Source: Undibacterium pigrum
GTDB taxonomy: Bacteria > Pseudomonadota > Gammaproteobacteria > Burkholderiales > Burkholderiaceae_D
NCBI RefSeq assembly: GCF_003201815.1
Contig: NZ_QJKB01000001.1
Coordinates: forward strand, 930,001 to 994,000
Direction: 5' to 3'
DNA length: 64,000 nt
Shown here: in pieces, positions 42,869 to 57,773 of the stretch
Position numbering within the stretch: position 1 is the stretch's first letter
How the letters are laid out: each line of letters starts with the position of its first letter
Notes under the pieces: model-generated
What the model saw: only the letters and a program-made list of their open reading frames with translations
Told to the model about the DNA's origin: nothing
The model's database searches: none
Program-made: the position numbers and the translations under genes

Positions 42869-44230
42869 ATGCGTGACTATCTGAACGGTCTGGAATGGCT
42901 AAAAAGCGGACTGTTCTGGCGCACTTTTTTCATGCTGGCTGCACTGGTAACAGCCAGTATGATTGCCTGGATGTCGAATTTCCGCACCCTGGAAACCACT
43001 CCCAGGGCACAGCAACTGGCAGCGCAGATAGTCTCCATAGTCACCATTACGCGCGCCGCCCTCGCCCACTCAGCACCGGAAAAACGCCAGGAACTCTTGC
43101 GTGACCTGGCGACGAAAGAGGGCGTGCAAATTTACCTGCTGGAAGACAGCGACCGCGTCGAAGAACCTGAACTCACGCCGTTTTTTCTGGAATCCAGCCC
43201 TTTGATGAAGAAGGGCCTGGGCAACAACACTCGCTTCGCCAGCCAGATCAATGGTATCAGTGGCTTCTGGATCAGTTTTGATATAGAAGATGATCATTAT
43301 TGGTTGAGGCTGGAACAAAGCCGGCTCGATCCGCCCATAGGCCAGCAATTGTTGAGCTGGGCTGTACTGACCCTGTTTTTAACTTTACTGGGCGCGGCAA
43401 TTATCTCCAAATTGATTAATGATCCTTTATCCCGCTTGAGCAATGCAGCTCGTGCGGTTGCAAAAGGCAAGCAGCCACCGCCGCTACCGCAAAAAGGCCC
43501 TAAAGAAATTCGCGAAACCAATTTGAGTTTCAACAGCATGATGGAAGATCTGGTCAGGATAGAATCAGACCGCTCCATCATTCTGGCAGGTATCTCGCAT
43601 GACTTACGCACCCCGCTTGCGCGCATGCAGCTTGAAGTGGAAATGGCAAACTTGAGCGATGACGCCAGAACTGGTATGCAATCTGACCTTCAGCAAATGG
43701 ATGACATCATCAGTCAGTTCCTCGACTATGCCAAACCGCTGGACAAGGTAGAGTTCGAACGCATCAACATCAGCGAAGTCATGCAACAAGTGATTGATGA
43801 AGCTTTCCGCTTCCAAAATCTGCGTCTGCGCACTGCCATTACGCCAGATATCCATGTCAACGGTAACCTCACCGAACTCAAGCGCTTGTTCAATAACATC
43901 GTAGAGAATGCCTGTCGCTATGGCAAAACCTCTGGCTCCCCCGTCATTACTCTCGATGTCCAATGCTCACGCAAAAACAAAGACCGCAAACTGGGAATAC
44001 AAATCAGTTTTCGCGATCACGGTTTAGGTGTACCAGAACAAGACCTGGTCAGGCTATTACGCCCATTTACTCGTGGCGACGCCTCTCGCAGCCAGGCTAA
44101 TGGTTCCGGCCTTGGTCTGGCAATCGTCGATCGCATCATTAAAAGCCATGGCGGCAAATTGCGCATCTACAACCATGCTGAAGGTGGTTTCGTGATTGTG
44201 ATCGCGCTGCAAGAATCAAAGGAAGCTTGA
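42869..44230 (+). CDS. envZ: EnvZ-like sensor histidine kinase
   Basis: The 453-aa inner-membrane kinase has TM1 at about residues 18-36, a periplasmic sensor of about 120 residues, TM2 at about 160-180 and a HAMP domain. The HisKA domain carries phospho-acceptor H244 (GISHDLRTPLARMQLEVEMA), and the ATPase domain has N (NNIVENACRYG), DHGLGVP and GSGLGLAIVDRI boxes. The layout and the H-box match EnvZ. It is the partner of the adjacent OmpR-like regulator. What it senses cannot be read from sequence. Confidence 0.92.
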   Translation: MRDYLNGLEWLKSGLFWRTFFMLAALVTASMIAWMSNFRTLETTPRAQQLAAQIVSIVTITRAALAHSAPEKRQELLRDLATKEGVQIYLLEDSDRVEEPELTPFFLESSPLMKKGLGNNTRFASQINGISGFWISFDIEDDHYWLRLEQSRLDPPIGQQLLSWAVLTLFLTLLGAAIISKLINDPLSRLSNAARAVAKGKQPPPLPQKGPKEIRETNLSFNSMMEDLVRIESDRSIILAGISHDLRTPLARMQLEVEMANLSDDARTGMQSDLQQMDDIISQFLDYAKPLDKVEFERINISEVMQQVIDEAFRFQNLRLRTAITPDIHVNGNLTELKRLFNNIVENACRYGKTSGSPVITLDVQCSRKNKDRKLGIQISFRDHGLGVPEQDLVRLLRPFTRGDASRSQANGSGLGLAIVDRIIKSHGGKLRIYNHAEGGFVIVIALQESKEA

Positions 44231-44438
44231 GTCCTTACACGTAGACGCACTTAGTCAAAAATTCCAACACACGTATAAGGTGGCAAAGCCGCACGTCAAC
44301 ATGCAGACCGCTGATGGCAGAAATGTACCAGGAATCCATATCGCCATTCAATATGGTGTCATCCAAGGATGCAAAGGCTAGAATTTTCGAGCCTGATTGA
44401 CGCTAGCTGCCAGCGTTTTTCATAAAATTTTTACCCAT

Positions 44439-44466
44439 AAAAAATGCCGCGCAATTGCGCGGCATT
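44439..44466 (-). terminator. Rho-independent terminator after the giant coiled-coil gene
   Basis: AATGCCGCGCAATTGCGCGGCATT is avoided in full here: the stem is AATGCCGCGC (44443-44452) with its perfect complement (44457-44466). On the minus strand it is followed by six T. It lies 21 nt past the stop of the 1906-codon gene. Confidence 0.88.
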
Positions 44467-44487
44467 CTGGTTCAGAACAGCTTAAGC

Positions 44488-47400
44488 TTAACGATTACCT
44501 GCCAAAGCCAGTTGTGTAGCAGCAGTTTTACTACCCTCTTCCGCCTGAGCTGGAGTAGTGTCAGCAGGAACAGCCAACTCGTAACTCATGTGTAAGCCAG
44601 TATCCACTTTTTGCACTGGTGCCACTTGTTCTAGCGTAGCAGTTTTTTGAGTGACTGCACGCGAAGCTGCCGTACCGTTTACAGCAAAATTACTGAAACC
44701 GGCAAAGCCTGCAAAACCAGCACACAATAACAAGCCAGCAATGACCGATGGGCGCAGGCGGAAGCGTTTTTGCACTTCACCTTGCTGAACAGTAGCATCA
44801 TAAGCCACGGCGATTGGTGCTGCTGCCAGCATTTGCTCAACCTGTTGACGCCATTCTTCCGATGTTTGTCTATTGCTCAGCAGTTTGCTGATCAATGCCT
44901 GGGCCAGTTGTTCAGCTTCCTGATGTTCAGCTTCCAGCGTTTGTTTTGCCATTTCTGCCTCAGCTTGCAATTCTTCTTGCTGTTGCTGTATTTGCAGTCT
45001 GTTTTGCTCTTGCCATTCTCTGGCCGATGCCAGCGCTTGCTCAATAAAAGCCTGGGCTGCAGCTTGTTGCTCCGCACGTTGTTGCAACATGGCTTGCAGT
45101 TCTGCTTCGTCGGCTGCCTGTTTTTCCAAATGCGCTTGCAAGGCTTTTTCGTCTGCGATGCGTTTTGCTGCAGCATCTGCCAGTGCCTGTTGTTTTTGCT
45201 GGGTTTGTGATTCAACCGCTATCAATTGCTGTTGCAGTTCTTCTTGCAATGTTACTTCCAATGACAATTGTTCTTCGAGTTTGGCTTGCAAGGCACTTTG
45301 CTCTTCCATACGTTTGGCGATAGCTGTATTAAGCGCGTGTTCTTTCTCCAGCCTTTGTGCTTCAGCCGCTTCCAGTTTGGATGCCAGTTCAGCCTGCAAT
45401 ACTGTTTCTACTGCCAAGGCCTGCTCAGCTTGCTTGAGCAAGTCATTCTCTTTCTCTGCACGTGCAGCGAAGCTTGCGGCCAAAGCTTGCTCTTTTTCCA
45501 GTCGCTGCATTTCGGCGACTTGCAGTTTTGAAGCAAGTTCAGCTTTCAATTCTGCCTCTGCTACCAAGGCTTGCTCGGCGTGGGCCAGCAGTGTGTTTTC
45601 TTCTTCAACAAGTGCGGCGATAGCTGCGGCCAAGGCTTGTTCTTTTTCCAGTCTCTGGGCTTCCAGAGTTTCAAGCTGGCTTTCTTCCAGTAATTTGGCA
45701 CGCAATTCTGGCAACGCTTGTTCGTCAGCAGCGATTTGCAGGGCTGTGGCCTCTGCGATCTCACGTTCCAGCGCCAGCTTTTCCTGTTCCAGCGCATTGG
45801 CGATCAGCAGTTGTTCCGCGCGTTGTTTACTTTGTTCTGCCAGCTCTGATTCCAAACGTACGCGTTCTTCTGTCGCATTAATGACCAGACGCTCGGCTTC
45901 CATTTTTTCTTCAATGAGGCGCAAGGCATCCTGTGTCATTTGCAAGCTATCCATCTCCATCTGTTTTTGCTGCTGGATGGTGATGATTTCGCGCTGTGCC
46001 AGTTCTGCACGTTGTTGCTCTGCTTGTTGCAGGATGAATAATTCTTCCGCGCGAGTCTGTGCTGCTTCAGTGGCTTGCTGCTCGGATATTGCCAGTGCAT
46101 TTGCCAACTCAGTTGCTTCTTTTTCGCTTTGCAACCTGGCCTGAATGGCGACATTGGCATCTTGCTCAGCATTGGCGCGAATTTCGCACAGACTCAGATA
46201 TTCTTGCTCAGCCAGTTTGCGTTGTTCTGCTTCTCGCGCTGCTTTTTGTTCTGCAGCCAGTTTTTGCTGTACCAGGCTCAATGCTTCAAGCTCACTGGAA
46301 GCGCGCTGGTTTTCAGTCATGGTCAGCGCCTCTGCTTCGCGCAATCTGGTTTCTGTCGCTTCTGCTGCCAGACGCTGCGCTTCAGCATGTTCAGCGGAAC
46401 GTGCCAGCAAGGCCTGCTCAGCATTTGCCAGGCGCAAGGTAGCTTCCAGAGCTTCTTGCTCTTTATAAGCACGTTCGCTTGCAGCTTCTGCAAATTCACG
46501 TTCTATTGCCAATTTGGCTTGCAGTGTGATTTCTGCTGATTCTTCCTGTTCCAGCTTGGTTTTCAGTTCAGCGCTGATTTGCTGTTCAACAGCGATTTTT
46601 TCCTGACTGGCACGGCTCAACTCCAGCAGCAAGGCGGTTTTTTCTTCGAGTGCGACAGCTGCCTGACGCTTGATCAGTGCTTCCTGAGCCGCTTGTGCCA
46701 GCCATTGTTTTTCGGTTTCATTGAATTTTTCTGCCAGTTCGCGCGCCTGTGCTTCAGCAGCCTGACGCTCAGTGATCAATTTGTATTGCGCTTGTTCTGC
46801 CACCAGGCGCGCTTCTGCTTCTGCAGTAGCTGCCAGCTCTGCCTGTTGCTTGGCTGTCAGGCTATCCAGTACGGCTTGCTCCGCAGCGATACGTTGCTGT
46901 TGTGCAGCCAACAATTCCTGCTCTTGTTGCAAGCGTTGTGCCAGCAGTTCAGCCATCAGGCTTTGCGCGTCAGCATGAGCAGCCAATTCCTGGAACAGGG
47001 CTTTTTCTGATGCCAGGGTTGCTTCAGTTGCGGCACGAATGATTTTTTCTGCACGGGCTCGGGCTTCAGCAAATTGCTGTGCTTCGGTTTCACTGGACAA
47101 GCGGCTTTGTACGTCTTCATGCGCTTCTTGTTCTGCCTGCAATCTGGCCGTTGTGGTATTTACCAAAGCCTGATCATCTGCCAGACGCTGTTGCAAGACA
47201 GCGTCAAGTTCAGCAACTTTTTTATTCTTTTCAATGACCAGTTCGTGGGCTTTATGCTGGCTGGCAGCATAGGCTTGCGCCTGGATTTGCAATGCCTGCT
47301 CAGCTTGCAATTTGGCCGCTGTCAATTCATTGGCTTCTTGCTCTGCCCTGGCCCTAACGGCTGCAGCCTGTGCATGTTGCTGCTCTGCTTTTGCTCTGGC

Positions 47401-50208
47401 AGTGGCGGCTTCTGTGGCAATTTTTTCTGCTGCCAGTTTTTCTGCCGCTGCTTTTGCTTCCAGTTCAGCTGCTTCAGCTTTTTGTTTTTCCAGCCTGGCT
47501 TGCTCTTCCAGCGCCAGGGCAGCCTGTTGTTGAGACTTTGCTTTTCCTTGCTCAAGCTGCGCCAACTGGGTTGCAGCTTTTACCCGTGCTGCTGCAGCAG
47601 TGGCTGCTTGTTGTTCAGCTTTGGCTTGCTGATTGTTTTGTTCCAGCAGTTTTTTCTCTTCTGCTACTTTGCTTTCCATGGCAGCACGCAAAGCTTGTTC
47701 AGATTGCAGACGGGCCAGATGCTGGTCACGTTGTTCCTGCTCTACTGCTGCCTTGGCTTGCAATTCTGCTGTCAGGCGTTTTTCTGCTTCCAGTTTTTGC
47801 TGAACGAGGTTCAGGGCTTTTTGCTCTGACTCTGCACGCAAGCGCAGAGTCTTGCCCAGCTCTTCGGCTTCAACAGCCTTGGTTTGTGCCAGGACCGCAG
47901 ATTGTTTTTGCAGATCTGCATGTTCCTGCATTTTTTGCAGGCGTACTTGTTCTGCTGCGATCATGGCTTGACGCGCTGCACGAGCTTCTGCTTCTTGTTG
48001 CTGGCGCGCATTCAATACGCTGGTATGCTCACGATCAGCATGGGCACGGGCGATGACTTGCTCTGCTGCTGCTTTTTCAGCTTCCAGTTTTTCCTGAGCT
48101 GCTCTTGCCGCCTGCTTTTCTGCTTCCAGATGCATTTGCTCTGCGCGCGCCATTTCTGTGGCTTGATGGCTAATCAGCAAAGCGACCTTGGCTGCCTTAC
48201 ATTGGGCATCTTTTTGCAGCGCTGTTTGTTCCAGAGTGTTTTTTTCTGCATCAAGAGTGGCTTCCAGCGCCAGTCTTTCTTCGCGCTCGGCTTGCTCCCT
48301 GGCAGCGGCAATTGCCTTGGATTCTTCTTCTGCACGCAGCCTGGCTTCAGCCTCTTGCTGGGCGGCCTGTTCAAGTTGCAGTTTTTCCTGGGTTGCCTTC
48401 AGCACTTGTTGCACTGCGTTGGCACGGCGACGCTCTGCCTGTAGTTTTTCTTCCTGAAGTTCCATCGCTTTCACCTCATCATTAGTGCGTTGCTGTTGGA
48501 CGCGCAGAAGTTCGCTGGCATCTTGATTTTTCCTGGCAGCGGCTGCGGCCATTTTTTGCTGCAATTCCACCTGCTCCATGGTTTTTTCCAGACTCAGTTT
48601 TTCTGCTACACATTCTGATTCCTGAGCTATACGACGGGCATGCTCTGCCTGTTCTTGCATACGCAAAATTTCTGCATGTGATTGTTCTGCTTCAGCCAAG
48701 GCTTCTGCTTCTTCTATCATTTTGCGTTCAGCAAGCAATTTCTCTTGCAATGCGGCGGCGGCTTTTTGCTCTGCTTCAGCGCGCATTTTTTCAGCCATCA
48801 TCAATTCCTGGGCTTTTTTGGCTTTATCTGCGGCTGCCAGGTTGGCGCGTTTCAGCAATTCAGCCTGGAATGCAGTAGCACTCAGAGCTTGTTGTTCAGA
48901 ATCGGCTTTTTCACGGGCATCTTGCACAGCCTGTTTTTCAATCTCCATGCGCTCTTTAGCCAGATTGGCGGCACGGTGCTCTTCGGCGACACGTTGACGG
49001 GCATTGTCGGCAGCTTCCTGCTCAGCCAGGCGGCGTTGACGGGCTTCTTCTGCCAGTACTGCTTCTGCATTCTGTCTTGCACGGGCTTGCAGGTCGGCTT
49101 GCTGTTCGTTTTCTATACGCGTCATGGCAGTTGATTGCAATTCGCGCTCTGCGCGTATGCGTGACTCAGTCACCATGCGGATTTTGTCTTCTGCTTCACG
49201 ACGGGCCTGTGCAGTCGCAGCGGCAATTTTCTCTGCCTGTTCGCGCTTGTTAGCAGCAATACGCAAGTCTTCTTCCGACTGCATGCGTAACTGTATCGCT
49301 TCTGCTGCCTTTCTTTCAGACTCCATTCTGGCCTGTGCGATTGCCTCTTGACCTTGCTCCAAGGCAACGCGAGCCAATGCATCTTCACGGGCACGCAACT
49401 CTACCGGTGCGCGATTGATCGCATATTCCAGCGCCATGGCTTCTGCCTGGTCACGCTCTTTACTGATTTGCAGAGATTCGCTGCGGACTTTGGCCAGCAT
49501 TTCTGCTGTTTCACGAGCTTCACGGTCGCGTTTTTCACGTTCGCGTGCCAGTTCTGTGATACGGGCATCAGCGCGGGCGCGTTCTTCTGCCTGTTGGCGT
49601 GCAGATTGTGATGCGGCAAAGCGTTCTGCAGCCCAGTTGCGAGCATTGGCAGTTTGCGTTGCCAGTTTTTCTGCTTCTGCATGGGCCTGGGAAGCTAGTT
49701 CTGATTCGGCCTTGAACTGGTGCTCGGCTTTTTCTATGGCTTGTTGTTCGAGTTTGGCGCGTTGTTCTGATTGTTCACGGGCCCGTGACTCTATCAGCGT
49801 ACGTTCTTGCAGATTCCTGGTTTCTTCGGCGGTGGCCGCGATCCTGGCTTCGCTGGCCGCGCGCGACTGGCGTTCTGCCATCAGTTTTGCCTGTGCGCCG
49901 GCGATAGCTTCTTGTTCCAGTGCCAGTTTGCGTTGGGCCAGTTCGGCGGCTTCTGCCTCGGCCTGCGCCCTGGTTTCTGCCAGTGCCCTGGCTTGGGATT
50001 CTGCTTTCAGCCTGGTCTCAGCGGCTACGGTGGCTCTGGCCTCCGCCTCCACCCTGGCGATGGCTTCACGAATACCTTTCACATCGATGCGGGTATTGGA
50101 CTCAATTGCCTCTTCTGGTGGCAAATAATCGTCCTTGCGATCGCCATGGCGATCGAGGGAGTAGTCTCCCAGAGATAATTTATTTAACAACGCCTGATTG
50201 CTGTCCAT
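44488..50208 (-). CDS. Giant Ala/Glu/Gln-rich coiled-coil protein with C-terminal membrane anchor (1906 aa)
   Basis: I do not recognise a family. After a 60-residue head, residues about 65-1790 form an almost unbroken charged helix with a 14-residue period (two heptads), e.g. TRLKAESQARALAE (65-78), TRAQAEAEAAELAQ (79-92), RKLALEQEAIAGAQ (93-106). Pro and Gly are very rare. Near residues 1515-1714 four longer 50-residue repeats occur. A basic KRFRLR segment precedes one membrane helix (1821-1843, SVIAGLLLCAGFAGF) and a 63-residue tail. By positive-inside logic the coil is cytoplasmic and the tail periplasmic. AGGAG lies 7 nt before the ATG, and a strong terminator follows. A structural or scaffold role is inference. 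Confidence 0.88.
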   Translation of the reverse strand: MDSNQALLNKLSLGDYSLDRHGDRKDDYLPPEEAIESNTRIDVKGIREAIARVEAEARATVAAETRLKAESQARALAETRAQAEAEAAELAQRKLALEQEAIAGAQAKLMAERQSRAASEARIAATAEETRNLQERTLIESRAREQSEQRAKLEQQAIEKAEHQFKAESELASQAHAEAEKLATQTANARNWAAERFAASQSARQQAEERARADARITELAREREKRDREARETAEMLAKVRSESLQISKERDQAEAMALEYAINRAPVELRAREDALARVALEQGQEAIAQARMESERKAAEAIQLRMQSEEDLRIAANKREQAEKIAAATAQARREAEDKIRMVTESRIRAERELQSTAMTRIENEQQADLQARARQNAEAVLAEEARQRRLAEQEAADNARQRVAEEHRAANLAKERMEIEKQAVQDAREKADSEQQALSATAFQAELLKRANLAAADKAKKAQELMMAEKMRAEAEQKAAAALQEKLLAERKMIEEAEALAEAEQSHAEILRMQEQAEHARRIAQESECVAEKLSLEKTMEQVELQQKMAAAAARKNQDASELLRVQQQRTNDEVKAMELQEEKLQAERRRANAVQQVLKATQEKLQLEQAAQQEAEARLRAEEESKAIAAAREQAEREERLALEATLDAEKNTLEQTALQKDAQCKAAKVALLISHQATEMARAEQMHLEAEKQAARAAQEKLEAEKAAAEQVIARAHADREHTSVLNARQQQEAEARAARQAMIAAEQVRLQKMQEHADLQKQSAVLAQTKAVEAEELGKTLRLRAESEQKALNLVQQKLEAEKRLTAELQAKAAVEQEQRDQHLARLQSEQALRAAMESKVAEEKKLLEQNNQQAKAEQQAATAAAARVKAATQLAQLEQGKAKSQQQAALALEEQARLEKQKAEAAELEAKAAAEKLAAEKIATEAATARAKAEQQHAQAAAVRARAEQEANELTAAKLQAEQALQIQAQAYAASQHKAHELVIEKNKKVAELDAVLQQRLADDQALVNTTTARLQAEQEAHEDVQSRLSSETEAQQFAEARARAEKIIRAATEATLASEKALFQELAAHADAQSLMAELLAQRLQQEQELLAAQQQRIAAEQAVLDSLTAKQQAELAATAEAEARLVAEQAQYKLITERQAAEAQARELAEKFNETEKQWLAQAAQEALIKRQAAVALEEKTALLLELSRASQEKIAVEQQISAELKTKLEQEESAEITLQAKLAIEREFAEAASERAYKEQEALEATLRLANAEQALLARSAEHAEAQRLAAEATETRLREAEALTMTENQRASSELEALSLVQQKLAAEQKAAREAEQRKLAEQEYLSLCEIRANAEQDANVAIQARLQSEKEATELANALAISEQQATEAAQTRAEELFILQQAEQQRAELAQREIITIQQQKQMEMDSLQMTQDALRLIEEKMEAERLVINATEERVRLESELAEQSKQRAEQLLIANALEQEKLALEREIAEATALQIAADEQALPELRAKLLEESQLETLEAQRLEKEQALAAAIAALVEEENTLLAHAEQALVAEAELKAELASKLQVAEMQRLEKEQALAASFAARAEKENDLLKQAEQALAVETVLQAELASKLEAAEAQRLEKEHALNTAIAKRMEEQSALQAKLEEQLSLEVTLQEELQQQLIAVESQTQQKQQALADAAAKRIADEKALQAHLEKQAADEAELQAMLQQRAEQQAAAQAFIEQALASAREWQEQNRLQIQQQQEELQAEAEMAKQTLEAEHQEAEQLAQALISKLLSNRQTSEEWRQQVEQMLAAAPIAVAYDATVQQGEVQKRFRLRPSVIAGLLLCAGFAGFAGFSNFAVNGTAASRAVTQKTATLEQVAPVQKVDTGLHMSYELAVPADTTPAQAEEGSKTAATQLALAGNR
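45060..45660 (-). repeat. 150-bp tandem repeats inside the coiled-coil gene
   Basis: The sequence around the RLEKE(Q/H)AL motif recurs every 150 bp (landmarks at 45351, 45501 and 45651), giving three clear 50-residue copies and a fourth more diverged one. Fifty is not a multiple of seven, so each copy shifts the heptad phase by one residue. Confidence 0.8.
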
Positions 50209-50413
50209 TTATGCACTCCTGATCTGATAGTCGTTCACCGTCATCGCGGGCCCTGCCATGCCGGAACTTCTTATACTGGATTATCAATCAAGAAAAATTT
50301 GACGATGGCTGGAGCAGAAGTGGAAAAACACCTCAATTCCTGATTTATCCGTTTCCCTTAATGCTTGCTGGGACGTAAAATAGCGGTCAACTCAACATTG
50401 CCGGAGAATTACC

Positions 50414-51046
50414 TTGAACGAACTCGTTACCGAAATCAGACACCCATTGGTGCAACACAAGCTGACACTGATGCGCAGCAAAGACACGCCGACCGATAAT
50501 TTCCGCCGCCTCTTGCGTGAAATCAGCCAGATGCTGGCCTATGAAGTCACCCGTGACCTGCCGATTGAACTGGTCAAGATCGAGACTCCGATCACAACCA
50601 TTGATGCACCAACCATCAGCGGCAAGAAGCTGTGCGTGATCTCGGTCTTGCGCGCTGGCAATGGTATTTTGGATGGCATGCTGGATTTGCTGCCAAATGC
50701 CCGCGTAGGCCATATTGGTCTGTACCGCGACCCGGAAACACTGGAGCCAGTCGAGTATTACTTCAAAGTGCCAGAAGATATCGCAGAACGCCTGGTGATC
50801 GTGGTTGACCCTATGCTGGCAACTGGCAACTCAGCCGCTGCAGCAATCACCCGCCTGAAGCTGCGTGGCGCCACGACAATCAAATTCGTTTGCCTGCTGG
50901 CCGCGCCTGAAGGCATCAAGGTAATGAACGCTGCCCATCCTGATGTGCCTGTCATTACAGCCTCTATTGATGACCATCTGAATGAACACGGCTACATCGT
51001 ACCTGGCCTGGGCGATGCTGGTGACCGTTTGTTTGGTACTAAATAA
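50414..51046 (+). CDS. upp: Uracil phosphoribosyltransferase
   Basis: Upp salvages uracil with PRPP to UMP. The 210-aa protein aligns along its length with bacterial Upp ([12 protein letters not shown] at the N-terminus, PRPP loop [16 protein letters not shown], and the uracil-binding C-terminus [19 protein letters not shown]). The start is TTG at 50414, supported by GGAG 7 nt upstream. It is divergent from the giant coiled-coil gene; a 205-nt gap between them holds both promoters. Confidence 0.97.
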
Positions 51047-52276: not shown

Positions 52277-52402
52277 AAAGACCTGAAACATTAAGAACGT
52301 GTTTGCGATCTGTAGCGAGCGAGCGTCAGCGGGAGTGAAGAGCAGCGCATGAGCCCCGATCACGCTTGCGCAGTAAGATCGCAAACAGGTTCTCAGGTCT
52401 TT
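52277..52402. repeat. 126-bp hairpin element with imperfect inverted ends
   Basis: Inner arms GAACGTGTTTGCGATCT (52295-52311) and its complement (52376-52392) match at 16 of 17 positions. Outer arms AAAGACCTGA (52277-52286) and TCAGGTCTTT (52393-52402) match perfectly, with 8 extra bases on the left. The element fills the gap between convergent genes and overlaps the DUF3999 stop codon. It encodes nothing. It could be an extragenic repeat or a bidirectional terminator. Confidence 0.65.
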
Positions 52403-53877
52403 GCCTTATCTTCCGATATACTCTTCAGCAGGGACCATACCATCCCGCCCAATAATAATAAACCAACACCCAATGCAGCCCATAACCAGGGTTTATGCTC
52501 TTTGGCAGGCGTCTTATCAACGGCTGGTTTGATCGCAGCCTGAGGTGCGACATAGTCGGCAATTTCTACACTGGCGATATCGGCCTGCACTGGCCTGGTC
52601 AAATCCATTTTTGGGATCAGCGTTGTCAAAGGTATTGCAGCGCCCTCTTTGTTCTCCATTCCCCATTCCAGCTGGTAAGGCGGTTTGCCACGCGCCAGAA
52701 AAACCAGCCTGCGCGGTAAACTAGCGATCTGTATCTCCGGCAAAGTTTTACCCAGCTTGCTATATGGATTATCTGTTTGCAAGCGCAAGGTTTTATAACT
52801 AGCTCCATCCATGAGCAAATCACGTGATTTGACTTCGCCATTGGGCAGGTTTATTTTATAAACCAGACTGTCATTCAACCAGACCTGTTGATCCACCTGC
52901 ACTTCGGTATTGCGCTTTTGATGCCTTAGCACATGCAAAGGGTATAGCGGGCTATGCCTGTGATGATACGAGGATACTGGTGTAGTTGTGGTCGTCACCT
53001 GTGCCAGTACCGTGATATGCAGCAGGGTATTGGGTTCGCTCACCAGTAAACGCAGGCTGTCTATAGGCGTATTATCGGGAATGCTGTACTCGCAGTAATT
53101 TGCAGCGCAAGTCTTCACAGGAATAGGCTTACTCCATTGCAAAACTGGTGGCGTGTAGACTTCTTGCTGACTGTCTATGCTGACATTGTCCAGCCAGGGT
53201 GCATCTGCAGGATTATTCCAGCGCAGGCGCAAATACTGCGCGCTGACATGATGAAGCCTGATACCGAGATTCTGCAACACTGAACCTTGATGACGCAGCT
53301 GCACCAATTGTTCGCTGCCCAGCGATTGCCAGTTTTTCAGATCATTGCTGCTTTCCAGCGTGAAGCCGAACATGCCATCTACCTGTTCGCTAATGCTGAA
53401 CCTGGCTTGCAATAACTTACCCTTGATCTTGCTGACATCAATAATCCAGGCAGGCACAGGATTTTGCCTGGTAATTTTCACTTGAGACAAGGCAGTCAGT
53501 GAGCCATCTGCATTTTGCCGGAAGCTGCTGAAACTGTTGCTTTGTATATCTTTCAAAGGAAAGGCACTGACAGTTTTACTCTCCAGCTTGGCGCTGGAGG
53601 TTTCCATATCAGCCCAGGCAAATGACAAGAGATCACCATCTGCATTGCGCACACGTACATCATGCAGATCAGGATGCAGGCTACCAGGATAAATATTGGT
53701 TGGTATATCCAGTTGAAAATACGGGCCAGCCGCGGTGCTTGAAATGACCGCATGCTTTGTCTGCGGAGCAAGCGCCTGCGCTACACCAGCATTGGAAGTA
53801 ATCGCACAAGCAGCCAGCAATAACAGCTTTAATTGCGATTTCAGGGTCAGCTTGTTGATACGCCTGTTGATACTCAT
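52393..53877 (-). CDS. DUF3999 family periplasmic/membrane protein
   Basis: The 494-aa protein has a signal peptide (about residues 1-36, ending AGVAQA). Beta-rich periplasmic modules include a galactose-binding-like segment (LRLRWNNPADAPWLDNVSID). A single C-terminal membrane helix (about 465-486, WLWAALGVGLLLLGGMVWSLL) is followed by a short cytoplasmic end. It matches DUF3999, whose genes typically accompany DUF2339. Its ATG overlaps the DUF2339 stop by 4 nt. An envelope function, perhaps glycan-related, is possible but unknown. Confidence 0.87.
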   Translation of the reverse strand: MSINRRINKLTLKSQLKLLLLAACAITSNAGVAQALAPQTKHAVISSTAAGPYFQLDIPTNIYPGSLHPDLHDVRVRNADGDLLSFAWADMETSSAKLESKTVSAFPLKDIQSNSFSSFRQNADGSLTALSQVKITRQNPVPAWIIDVSKIKGKLLQARFSISEQVDGMFGFTLESSNDLKNWQSLGSEQLVQLRHQGSVLQNLGIRLHHVSAQYLRLRWNNPADAPWLDNVSIDSQQEVYTPPVLQWSKPIPVKTCAANYCEYSIPDNTPIDSLRLLVSEPNTLLHITVLAQVTTTTTPVSSYHHRHSPLYPLHVLRHQKRNTEVQVDQQVWLNDSLVYKINLPNGEVKSRDLLMDGASYKTLRLQTDNPYSKLGKTLPEIQIASLPRRLVFLARGKPPYQLEWGMENKEGAAIPLTTLIPKMDLTRPVQADIASVEIADYVAPQAAIKPAVDKTPAKEHKPWLWAALGVGLLLLGGMVWSLLKSISEDKAKT

Positions 53878-56800
53878 AATGCCTTCCCTTGATCTGCTGA
53901 TACTTCACTATCCTCTGCCAATGCTGCCTGCGGCTCTTTGGGCTTGACGGGCACAGGCGCAAAATAAGCAACCACCAGCACCAAGATACCAACACCAATG
54001 AAAGAGACGATACGGTAAACGTCGCCACGGTCTGCCAGTTCTATCAGGAACAGTTTCACTACCACGACACCCAGGAGGGCAGCACCGGCGATCCAGGTAC
54101 TGCGTGACATGCGGCGATTGCCAAACAACATGACAGCCACACTACAAATTGCCCAAGTGATGGAAACTGCAGCTTGACTCAGGCGCGAAGCAAACAAGGC
54201 ATCTGCATCCCACGGCACGCCAGCAAAATGGTGGCAACTGCGCAAGACCATGCCAGTTAACAGAGCCAGCGCAGTGGAGGCGACTACGGCCACGGCAACT
54301 TGCCTGAGATTAGTTTTTGCGATACTGGCAGGCAAAGCGCGCCACCAATGCAACAGGGACGCCAGCACCAGCCATTGCCCCAATTCCAGTGGATTCAACA
54401 AAGGCAGATAAGGCAAGGGGCTGGCATCACCTGCACTGAAGGCATTGGTCAGCCAGCACCATGCCAGCAAGTACAAGGCGACAGGTGCACATGCCTGCTC
54501 GATATAAGTCTTGCGATAAGTATTCAAGGGCCAGCGACCTGCCAGGGGCTTGGCACCAATGAACCAGAATACAACGGCAGGAACCAGCACCCAGCCCAGC
54601 AATGGCCAGCTCGACCAGGTATCAGCCATAGGTGCGAGACGTGCCTGACCTTCGCGTGCTGCCAATAACAGGAAGAACCAAAAACCGGCAATATGAATAA
54701 GACTCAAGAGACGTGGCCATGCAGTCATCCAGTTTTGCTGCTTTTTCAATATCAGCAAATGCCAGGCCAGTGCCGCAGGCCAGGCAAGCCAGCCCAGGTT
54801 TGCCGATGGCAGATAAAGGCCGTCTGCACTCGCCGCACCTATCAAGCCAGCAAATACCAGGAGAGGCAAAGTGACGATGGTCGCGATACCCATTTGCGAC
54901 CATCGTCGCCAGCCTGCCAATACTGCCATCAGGGCAGAACTGGCAAGAGCAATTACGATAGCGACTGTTGAAGAATATTCACGATGATCTGTGCGTACCA
55001 GAGTTTCCAGGCTTTCCGGGAACCAGGCACTTAACCACCATGCCAGACCCCAGACCACAGACAAGCCCAAAGCAAGCTTGCTGCTGCACCATGGGTTAAG
55101 CCAGACGGATGGAAGTTTTTGTTCAGCCCCGTCTGCATTTGCAGTATTGCCAAATCCACTCAGGTCCAGCAGCACAGCACGCATCCTGGCAGCCTCGGCC
55201 CGTATGAAATCTGCGCTGAACCAGGCTGAAACAGCCAGCGACAAGGGCACAAAAAAGCCCAGATGTGCGAAAGCTGTGCCCTGATATTTGCCAGGTTCCA
55301 GTAAACACAAAACCGCCGCAATGATTTGCACTGCTCCGGCAAAACCTGCCAAAGCGCCGTGCGACATGCGCAAACCTACCCATAACAACATGCAGGAAGT
55401 TATAGGCCAGATCAACGATGCCTGCGTCAGGTTGATGGCAAACAGCATGGCCAGATGCAGCAATGCACTACCACTGATAATGGCCAGCTGGTTCCAGATT
55501 GACCAGGCCGGTGGCAAGGATTGTTCTTGTGCTGCGCGCTTGGTCGCTACCATGGAACGACCGGCACTGAACAAGATGCTGCCAGCAATAATCAGGGCTG
55601 CCAGGCCGCCTTTCCAGCCATCTTCCAGCGCCGCATTGCCACTGGCAGCAACATGCAGCGTCAACAAGAAAGACGCCAGTGCAGTTGCCTGCAAAGTGGC
55701 AGAGATATGCCCAAAAGCCGTCAGGACATAACGACGGGCAATCGCCGATACCAGCAAAGCCATGACAGCCATCGCTGCTGCCGCGAATTGCGGGTCCAGC
55801 AACATCCACGGCAATAAGGTCAGCGAAGCGACACCCAGCCAGGGCAAGGCTGCATTTGGCATGGCTTCCCAGCTGGAAATACTCTCAGCTTTGGCTTTCC
55901 CGTGCAAATTCCAGACTACAAAGCAGCTTACTGCCAGCAAGACGGGCCCCAGCAAGCCGCCCTGCAACAGCGGGCCGGTGGCCTCGGGATTGATGTAGAT
56001 ACCATGCAAAAGTTTGTAGGCTGCACCGACCATGACCAGATATGCAAAACCACGTGCATAAGGACGTTGCTGACGTATACCCAGCCAGTACATACCTGCG
56101 CCCTCTATGGCCCAGGCTGCACCTGTCCATGCACCTTCCAGCCCCAGCGGTATCGCCAGCGTGGCAAAGATGGCGGCAACAATGACATAGGCCTCGGCCA
56201 ACAGAGCCAGGCCCTGTTTAGCTTTGGAAAATACTATTTTTGCCAATACCAGATAAAAGAAACCGACGGCCAGCGCAGAAAAGGCAGCACCAAATTCGGT
56301 GTGTTTGACCAGCATGTATTGCATGCCAAAGGCGGTGATGGGGTTACCAAAAACCAGGGCACTATCGACCCGCCCTACCCGCTTCAGCGTAGCCAGAGGC
56401 CCCTCTTCAACTTCTGCTTCTTTCAGAGTGCGACGGGCAAAAAGCAGGCCTATCAAAGCAAACAGGACAAAGAAGAAAATTAGGAAAGGCTGGACAATGC
56501 CATACTGACTATCGGTATAGCTTCGCTCTGCCCAGCCCAGTGCCAGCGTAAAAGTGCCGACAAAGCCGATCAGGTTCAGTACACGCCAGGCATTGAACCA
56601 GGCAACCACGAAGATACCTATATCCAGCACAGCCATATAGGTGAACAAACCCAGGGGACGGTTTTCACCTGTGGAAATCAATACCGGCGTTGCAAAACCT
56701 TCAATTGCCGCAACAATCGCGAGGACAGGCGCATTTTGCAAGACAGCCAGGATGGCGCTCAGCACCGATACCATGAACAAGAATGCAAAGCCAACTTCAG

Positions 56801-57773
56801 GTGTGATCAAGGCATGCAATTTCATCGCCGATAGTGTGGTCAGATAAAACACACCTATGGCCATGCCCTGCAAGATCAATGCATAGTCTCTGCGTTTGCT
56901 GCGCAAGAACCAACCCAGGGCCAGTAATACAACGCCAGACAGAGCCACGCCTGCATAGCGCAATTCCACGGGTACGGTGACTCGCTCTGCGGTATAACGT
57001 AACAAGAAAGCCAGACCCAGGAACAAGATCAATACGCCGACTTTGACCAGTGCATTCCCGCCGAAAATAAGCTTCGCCAAAGGCGCAGGCAAGCGCTCCT
57101 GCAAAGACCTGGGTGGCGCTGGTGGTGGCGGGCGCTTTACTGGCTCAGGCTTCGCAGCTACCTGATTGACTGGCTCTTCAGTTTTGATAACAACAACTGG
57201 TGGAATGGAGTCGGCTTGCTCCATCGCTACGGCAGAGCTATTTTGTGAGGTAGCAATTTCATCGAGAGAAGTGAGTTGCAAATCCAGTGCTTCCAGGCCT
57301 GGCAACTCTTTTGCTACTAGCTGAGGCTGATGTTGAGATTCAACTGGATCTGGCTGCGCACCAAACTCTATTGTCGGCGGCACAGGCAGGCTCAAACTAG
57401 CATCATTGATTTTTGCGGCAGCGGCAGACTGTATGATTTTTTCTTCAGCAGGCGCCTCTTGAGGCCTTGCTTCAGCAATTTCTGCACTTTTAATGACGAC
57501 GTTACCGGCTTTAAGCTCGGCCATTTCGCGTTCCAGCGTTTGCAGGCGATGCTCAAGCTTGAAGATTTTCTGGTGCAATTCAACCAAACCATCATTGCCG
57601 CCGGTTTTTGGACTTGCTTGTGGTGATGGCTGCTGAACTGCAGCATCAACTTTGCGCGAACGCCCAATCTGATGACCGACAAAACCGCCGATCAAAGCGA
57701 AAAAGAACATGGCCGCACCCGAATCGGTCGCCACGCCCAACACGAAGCCTATGATTGCGCCAACAAACCACAT
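53874..57773 (-). CDS. DUF2339 polytopic membrane protein
   Basis: The 1299-aa protein starts with a glycine-rich hydrophobic helix pair (residues 1-40), then a short coiled coil (about 63-92, LHQKIFKLEHRLQTLEREMAELKAG). A Pro/Ala/Glu-rich linker to about 225 leads into a very hydrophobic region with some 30 membrane helices. This matches DUF2339. The function is unknown. It forms a coupled pair with DUF3999, so the two probably make one envelope complex. No other gene joins the operon. Confidence 0.9.
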   Translation of the reverse strand: MWFVGAIIGFVLGVATDSGAAMFFFALIGGFVGHQIGRSRKVDAAVQQPSPQASPKTGGNDGLVELHQKIFKLEHRLQTLEREMAELKAGNVVIKSAEIAEARPQEAPAEEKIIQSAAAAKINDASLSLPVPPTIEFGAQPDPVESQHQPQLVAKELPGLEALDLQLTSLDEIATSQNSSAVAMEQADSIPPVVVIKTEEPVNQVAAKPEPVKRPPPPAPPRSLQERLPAPLAKLIFGGNALVKVGVLILFLGLAFLLRYTAERVTVPVELRYAGVALSGVVLLALGWFLRSKRRDYALILQGMAIGVFYLTTLSAMKLHALITPEVGFAFLFMVSVLSAILAVLQNAPVLAIVAAIEGFATPVLISTGENRPLGLFTYMAVLDIGIFVVAWFNAWRVLNLIGFVGTFTLALGWAERSYTDSQYGIVQPFLIFFFVLFALIGLLFARRTLKEAEVEEGPLATLKRVGRVDSALVFGNPITAFGMQYMLVKHTEFGAAFSALAVGFFYLVLAKIVFSKAKQGLALLAEAYVIVAAIFATLAIPLGLEGAWTGAAWAIEGAGMYWLGIRQQRPYARGFAYLVMVGAAYKLLHGIYINPEATGPLLQGGLLGPVLLAVSCFVVWNLHGKAKAESISSWEAMPNAALPWLGVASLTLLPWMLLDPQFAAAAMAVMALLVSAIARRYVLTAFGHISATLQATALASFLLTLHVAASGNAALEDGWKGGLAALIIAGSILFSAGRSMVATKRAAQEQSLPPAWSIWNQLAIISGSALLHLAMLFAINLTQASLIWPITSCMLLWVGLRMSHGALAGFAGAVQIIAAVLCLLEPGKYQGTAFAHLGFFVPLSLAVSAWFSADFIRAEAARMRAVLLDLSGFGNTANADGAEQKLPSVWLNPWCSSKLALGLSVVWGLAWWLSAWFPESLETLVRTDHREYSSTVAIVIALASSALMAVLAGWRRWSQMGIATIVTLPLLVFAGLIGAASADGLYLPSANLGWLAWPAALAWHLLILKKQQNWMTAWPRLLSLIHIAGFWFFLLLAAREGQARLAPMADTWSSWPLLGWVLVPAVVFWFIGAKPLAGRWPLNTYRKTYIEQACAPVALYLLAWCWLTNAFSAGDASPLPYLPLLNPLELGQWLVLASLLHWWRALPASIAKTNLRQVAVAVVASTALALLTGMVLRSCHHFAGVPWDADALFASRLSQAAVSITWAICSVAVMLFGNRRMSRSTWIAGAALLGVVVVKLFLIELADRGDVYRIVSFIGVGILVLVVAYFAPVPVKPKEPQAALAEDSEVSADQGKAL

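Follow-up and report, generated by a model that had tools for sequence, protein, structure and literature searches.

A coiled-coil rod of 1906 residues in Undibacterium pigrum appears to belong to an uncatalogued protein family with possible links to cell shape and flagella

The window that we analysed, a stretch of 64,000 nucleotides of the Undibacterium pigrum genome, carries a gene that opens with ATG and encodes a rod-like protein of 1906 amino acids. Judged by its sequence and those of its relatives, this protein is a member of an undescribed, uncatalogued family of a known kind, the long coiled-coil scaffold, and is unusual in its size, topology and conservation. The predicted architecture is well supported; the function is what we infer, and the neighbours of the gene in related bacteria give a hint of cell shape and flagella. 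Tentatively, and somewhat short of calling it probable, we propose for the rod a mechanical role, as scaffold or tether, in a module that would set cell shape and support flagellar motility.

The sequence-only reading of this DNA had assigned the 5.7-kb gene its own Shine-Dalgarno sequence and terminator, and both can be read directly (Table 1). The terminator hairpin folds at -22.0 kcal/mol in a 45-nt piece; a consensus signal scanner did not report the hairpin at 44439-44466 as a terminator, and for the minus strand of 44230-50420 it listed no promoter of the sigma-70 type. A genome search gave a single match for the protein in its own genome. Among named records, four matched the rod locus, namely Undibacterium umbellatum and a groundwater Burkholderiales MAG with 94% best-segment identity, and Undibacterium sp. 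TS12 and U. hunanense with 79%. Against these four relatives dN/dS was 0.049, 0.043, 0.073 and 0.098, and by this measure (dN/dS 0.04-0.10) the frame is under strong purifying selection. Because the substitutions concentrate at third codon positions and dN/dS lies within 0.043-0.098, we conclude that the frame is translated, so that the initial reservation that it might not be was answered the other way.

Ala, Glu, Gln, Leu, Arg and Lys make up 23%, 16%, 12%, 11%, 8% and 6% of the protein, and residues 51-1790 contain only 2 Pro and 4 Gly. Self-identity of the window rod was strongest at lag 14, reaching 0.214, whereas the adjacent lags 13 and 15 gave about 0.11; the next highest peaks stood at lags 28, 42 and 56, followed by lesser ones at 50 and 22. 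A free 14-state phase model scored 490.7 versus 86.0 for a shuffled copy, and it was the best of the periods tried, outscoring 7, 11, 15, 18, 21 and 28; 116 of its 127 units are exactly 14 residues long, and 7 of the 9 phase jumps measure 6-8 residues. The pattern is a two-heptad repeat, whose fitted unit reads roughly AEQEAAEAAQARAE, with Arg/Lys at position 11 and Glu at position 1 (65% each). Calculated at 3.5 residues per turn, Ala and Leu would share a single broad helix face that also contains the Arg/Lys of position 11 and the Glu of position 1. No tandem repeats were found at the DNA level in the rod gene. Lag 14 ranked first in 37 of 86 rod proteins and third or better in 80; when another lag led, it was 28 or 42, the sole exception among the listed cases being L096 (22). 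An alpha-helical coiled coil rises about 0.15 nm per residue, so that the 1740 residues of the rod would extend over about 260 nm if fully stretched.

AlphaFold2 models of both ends of the protein consist essentially of long helices. In the head model helices run from residue 47 to 255 and from 267 to 452, with a low-confidence gap at about 250-266, just before P268. Of the continuous helix with a 14-residue period that had been described earlier, the period and the scarcity of Pro and Gly thus stand, while the continuity appears to be interrupted at this gap. Aligned across 35 proteins, the head forms about 400 almost gapless columns with a mean column identity of 57%, a piece near the start being missing in L055. 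Searched by profile against the PDB, the head returned one weak and uninformative match, the coiled-coil entry 9tls (E 7.7e-4). The N-terminal signature has the consensus xxDLKAIREAIARVEAEAKATVAAENRAxAEARARxLAExRA. A relaxed pattern detected its core in the window protein and at all but one of the 64 loci fetched from the same bacterial family (63 of 64; the exception, L063, is cut by a contig end); a stricter pattern missed 12 of 65 loci, L063 included, and L054, L055 and L065 keep only about the first 15 signature residues.

The best hydrophobic segment of the protein spans residues 1821-1839, and in the AlphaFold2 model of the C-terminus a helix that ends at residue 1796 is joined by a linker to a second one at 1820-1838, after which the tail is disordered. 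Among 44 aligned C-termini the Trp of the pre-membrane cap is invariant and LxMSYxL is the majority sequence in the tail. Because basic residues precede the membrane helix and the N-terminus is without a signal, the positive-inside rule would place the rod in the cytoplasm and the tail in the periplasm, and the protein is predicted to be a bitopic inner-membrane protein with N-in/C-out topology. The membrane-tethered cytoplasmic rod of the sequence-only reading therefore looks probable. Its single membrane helix after KRFRLR was also borne out; the helix had been put at 1821-1843 with a 63-residue tail and called tail-anchored, a term that is too loose, since about 66 residues follow the helix, and 'bitopic, N-in/C-out' fits better.

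Table 1. Features of the rod gene and protein in the window (residues refer to the 1906-residue protein)
Feature	Position in window	Strand	Basis
Rod gene, 1906 codons + stop	44488..50208	-	ORF reading, own-genome match, dN/dS
Shine-Dalgarno AGGAG, 7 nt 5' of ATG	50216..50220	-	direct reading
Hydrophilic N-terminus, residues 1-45, signal-like hydrophobic segment not found	50074..50208	-	composition/hydropathy
46-aa N-terminal signature, residues 40-85	49954..50091	-	alignments, position-specific scan
Conserved, nearly gapless head, residues 46-420	48949..50073	-	alignment
Head-helix interruption at conserved INRAPVE region, residues 251-268	49405..49458	-	alignment, AlphaFold2
14-residue repeat, residues 51-1790, ~124 repeat lengths	44839..50058	-	self-identity lags, phase model
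Pre-membrane cap with Trp, residues 1786-1800	44809..44853	-	C-terminal alignment
Basic stretch KRFRLR before membrane helix, residues 1814-1819	44752..44769	-	direct reading
Single membrane helix, ~residues 1820-1840	44689..44751	-	hydropathy, AlphaFold2
Tail, periplasmic by inference, residues 1841-1906	44491..44688	-	hydropathy, AlphaFold2
Conserved tail motif LxMSYxL, here LHMSYEL, residues 1872-1878	44575..44595	-	hydropathy scan, C-terminal alignment
Intrinsic terminator 3' of rod stop: 10-bp GC-rich stem, AATT loop, T-run	44439..44466	-	direct reading

Relatives of the rod are widespread in the bacterial family of U. pigrum (hereafter the home family), where an N-terminal query matched 112 of 195 genomes and 25 of 44 genera at E<=0.1, and a head profile matched 109 of 190 genomes and 24 of 44 sampled genera at E<=1e-5. 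Diverged relatives occur in seven other families of the same order. In the order sample a signature profile matched 30 of 300 genomes; two of these, G447 and G476, matched through other proteins (L144, L145) that are without the signature and were excluded from the order counts, and G308 (L146) was retained on synteny and layout though the signature window is not its best. In a phylum sample the search, of limited sensitivity, matched 3 of 398 genomes at E<=1e-6; the window genome is one of them, and all three belong to this order. When the signature was scanned in the other families against rod composition as background, the N-terminal window was best in 18 of 22 proteins and second in two proteins of family f15; in L146 it was not top, and in L137 the N-terminal part lies in another frame, while in L136, of the same family as L137, it was top. 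The parts common to the rod family are the 46-aa signature, a head of about 400 residues, a rod of variable length, the Trp cap, the membrane helix and an LxMSYxL-type tail.

Side observations from these searches concern proteins at the edge of the rod family. L144 and L145 (f46) are about 1130-1160 aa long, have an unrelated N-terminal domain and a coil-like stretch, presumably end in an AsmA-like C-terminus, and fall outside the rod family. The rod frame of L143, near position 1, leaves the contig end within a run of SMNEQ pentapeptides. Two Undibacterium genomes hold second coil-bearing frames of 929 and 944 aa (G227:C1:914826-915197 and G033:C83:191316-191600), which match the head profile weakly and may be a paralogue.

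Counted from the first ATG, rods are near-constant in length within Undibacterium, with 1701-1996 aa in 24 loci, and measure 739-1730 aa in 40 loci of other genera of the home family; L063 is truncated in this count, and L046 and L015 apparently lie on the same contig. In 16 nearest-neighbour comparisons within Undibacterium, all gaps, apart from one 243-residue difference, lay within the first 160 or so residues or beyond residue 1510 or so. Only 2 of 16 gaps in the rod had a length divisible by 7 or 14, which gives no support to growth or shrinkage in whole repeat units.

A membrane helix was recognized by hydropathy in 50 of 65 rod proteins of the home family. In a tree of 64 heads Undibacterium forms one clade, and the rods without the helix form one clade of 14 (starred in the tree), plus the long-branched L100. 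The membrane helix and tail thus appear to have been lost in one clade, essentially in one event. At the C-terminus the TM-less rods carry a helical stretch instead, in most of them with a TREVIxRLTQP-like motif; as far as sequence tells, this end replaces the membrane anchor in that lineage. The TM-less clade comprises L086-L090, L092-L096, L098, L099, L101 and L105, of 739-1077 aa.

Profile searches with the window rod and its relatives gave zero matches in Pfam and NCBIfam, the sole sub-threshold hit being L140 with DUF2340 (E 0.05); PHROG did not match the window protein, and PADLOC defence profiles matched none of three rod proteins. A large coiled coil lacking a recognized enzymatic domain, as first described, is thus what these four collections return, and no homologue with an assigned function of the TolA, SMC or filament type emerged from the profile searches. 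In a literature keyword search, titles and abstract openings contained no description of the rod family. The earlier suggestion of an undescribed structural protein holds insofar as no curated family matched, but the protein is not isolated, as its family extends over 24 of 44 sampled genera of the home family and into other families of the order.

Several known groups were considered by their domains in Pfam and NCBIfam. The ATPase head domains of SMC/MukB were not found, nor were the periplasmic LysM and the C-terminal FimV/TPR domain of HubP/FimV; no profile of curated filament families (crescentin/IF-like and others) matched; membership in TolA failed on the C-terminal position of the membrane helix and on the absence of a Pfam match, hence of a TolA domain; and PADLOC gave no sign of an anti-phage defence protein. 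TolA is a long Ala-rich helix with one membrane segment, anchored at its N-terminus and periplasmic; the rod shares the helix and the single segment, but its segment is C-terminal and its helix presumably cytoplasmic. Crescentin, Ccrp and FilP-type proteins are long cytoskeletal coiled coils without a C-terminal membrane helix and tail; the rod resembles them as a long coiled coil with a candidate role in shape, but has both of these parts. The motility-related polarity factors PodJ and TipN combine a coiled coil with a membrane helix in the inner membrane, as the rod does, but their coil is much shorter, and the rod matched no curated family searched. HubP/FimV is described as a single-pass membrane protein with a long cytoplasmic part, a periplasmic part and a link to motility (PMC12918733), and the rod would be similar in all four respects; unlike HubP/FimV, the rod would have reversed topology, and it has a coiled coil instead of an acidic region.

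In the window genome the rod gene lies between a RisS-like sensor kinase gene and upp, 66 kb from flhC and 72 kb from a Csd6-like gene, and because of these distances of 66-72 kb in Undibacterium the cell-shape and flagellar neighbours are invisible from the window. The sequence-only reading had offered a cytoskeletal, spacing or polar scaffold element; what adjoins the rod in relatives is a more specific pointer, to cell shape and flagella, so that this interpretation looks half right. The kinase (42869-44230) carries a RisS periplasmic domain (Pfam RisS_PPD), and relatives of it were present at 17 of 64 fetched loci compared, all Undibacterium; on the other side of the rod gene lie a DUF3999 protein (52393-53877) and an adjoining 1299-aa frame with many hydrophobic segments (53874-57773).

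In other genera of the home family, the rod gene was found directly upstream of a TPR+Cds6_C gene followed by a YkuD+Cds6_C gene, all on the same strand, at 11 of 40 fetched loci (genera g46, g47, g48, g52 and g55; Pfam domains verified on one pair). The YkuD protein of one pair matched PDB 4xzz (4e-24) and 6xj6, Pgp2 (7e-18); the PDB row for 4xzz reads 'conserved hypothetical secreted protein', and we take this entry to be H. pylori Csd6. In five genera the adjacent downstream genes thus include one for a protein of the Csd6/Pgp2 kind, which is a neighbour and not a homologue of the rod. Csd6 is described as an L,D-carboxypeptidase that determines cell shape and has a link to motility (PMC4599014), and disruption of a related gene in Aeromonas caviae reportedly gave shorter cells and more swimming (PMC4398505). 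At 3 of the 40 loci (g27, g50 and g34) the rod gene diverges from flhDC, which is followed by mot genes and, at one of these loci, by cheY-cheA in the fetched stretch; at 3 further loci flhD comes after the Csd6-like pair at a distance of 2.3-2.4 kb. In all five Undibacterium genomes fetched at that region, the Csd6-like pair lies 4-5 kb from flhD. Because flhDC and the Csd6-like genes lie near each other, these two contexts are not independent. In the distant family f15 the rod gene comes directly after fliR on the same strand at 6 of 7 loci. Other settings were thiG and trmB at four loci of f23, f18 and f46, and guaA or glnD at 6 of 7 loci of f24; the 14 TM-less loci have assorted neighbours unrelated to the shape and flagellar loci.

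Co-occurrence was counted without correction for ancestry throughout. FlhC was present in 105 of 109 rod-bearing versus 57 of 81 other genomes of the home family, the four rod-bearing genomes without it being drafts of at most 89% completeness; among genomes at least 90% complete and with at most 5% contamination the counts were 97 of 97 versus 56 of 73. In the order sample FliM was present in 26 of 28 rod-bearing versus 173 of 272 other genomes (25 of 27 rod-bearing genomes when G308, which carries L146, is left out); the two rod-bearing genomes without FliM, G364 and the draft G369, belong one to f18 and one to f23, and their rods L139 and L137 look frame-broken. A Csd6-like gene was found in 55 of 58 genomes of genera with a membrane-anchored rod versus 4 of 48 genomes of TM-less genera, an association that rests on about one loss event, because the TM-less rods form essentially one clade. 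For this count anchor status was assigned by genus, with g32 and g68 (cut copies) assumed to be anchored; it excludes G088, the lone TM-less copy with a Csd6-like gene, and G004 and G238, which apparently lay outside that sample, G004 having a Csd6-like gene by another search. Four genomes of g64 keep a Csd6-like gene although their rod is TM-less. Since 57 of 81 rod-less genomes have FlhC and 37 rod-less genomes of the home family have a Csd6-like gene, neither flagella nor the Csd6-like gene needs the rod.

In the scaffold or tether that we propose, the coiled-coil rod would stand in the cytoplasm with its short C-terminal tail in the periplasm. Chains would associate through the Ala/Leu-rich face, and the regularly spaced Arg/Lys and Glu would set the register between them. 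Far from the membrane, the conserved head may bind a partner in the cytoplasm, most likely the flagellar/chemotaxis apparatus, and the tail motif a periplasmic one, for which the Csd6-like peptidoglycan-trimming pair is the likeliest candidate. A bolder form of the proposal, which we regard as decidedly unlikely, is that of a transenvelope ruler: the head would hold or report on flagellar/chemotaxis machinery up to about 250 nm from the anchor while the tail positions Csd6-like trimming, which would couple the shaping of the wall mechanically to the siting of flagella; rod length, alike within Undibacterium but not across genera, would set the spacing.

Part of the same evidence can be read in other ways. 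The very regular 14-residue pattern with its conserved charge spacing, and the 16 Undibacterium pairs that, bar the one large difference, are free of gaps between about residues 160 and 1510, would suit a cytoskeletal element that assembles into filaments or bundles and by itself confers mechanical strength or curvature, its neighbours being incidental; we consider this unlikely, as a free filament would not need a conserved membrane helix and tail, and lengths range from 739 to 1996 aa between genera. Neighbours that vary between genera and families, including the thiG-trmB, guaA and glnD contexts without a motility gene, would be expected if the rod were a neutral spacer or a general tether from the membrane to, for example, nucleoid or ribosomes, with the flagellar and Csd6-like adjacency due to chance or inherited gene order. 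This explanation too we consider unlikely, since two separate lineages have the rod at flagellar operons and head and rod are under strong purifying selection.

The flagellar and chemotaxis neighbours in relatives, together with a membrane anchor, a long cytoplasmic part and a short periplasmic part, also recall a polar landmark like HubP/FimV that brings the flagellar and chemotaxis machinery to the cell pole, but the predicted topology is the reverse and the LysM and TPR/FimV domains are missing, which makes this reading quite improbable. Least credible, to the point where we give it hardly any weight, is a TolA-like or exported periplasmic rod: the Ala-rich helix and single membrane segment are reminiscent of TolA, but the C-terminal membrane helix, the basic residues before it, the N-terminus without a signal-like segment and the lack of a Pfam match all speak against it.

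Many genera of one order thus share a conserved protein that can reach about 2000 residues and lies outside every curated family searched. If the rod does link wall trimming to motility, it would represent a new kind of envelope scaffold; even otherwise, its regular 14-residue pattern and near-constant length per genus make length control and coiled-coil assembly in bacteria directly testable.
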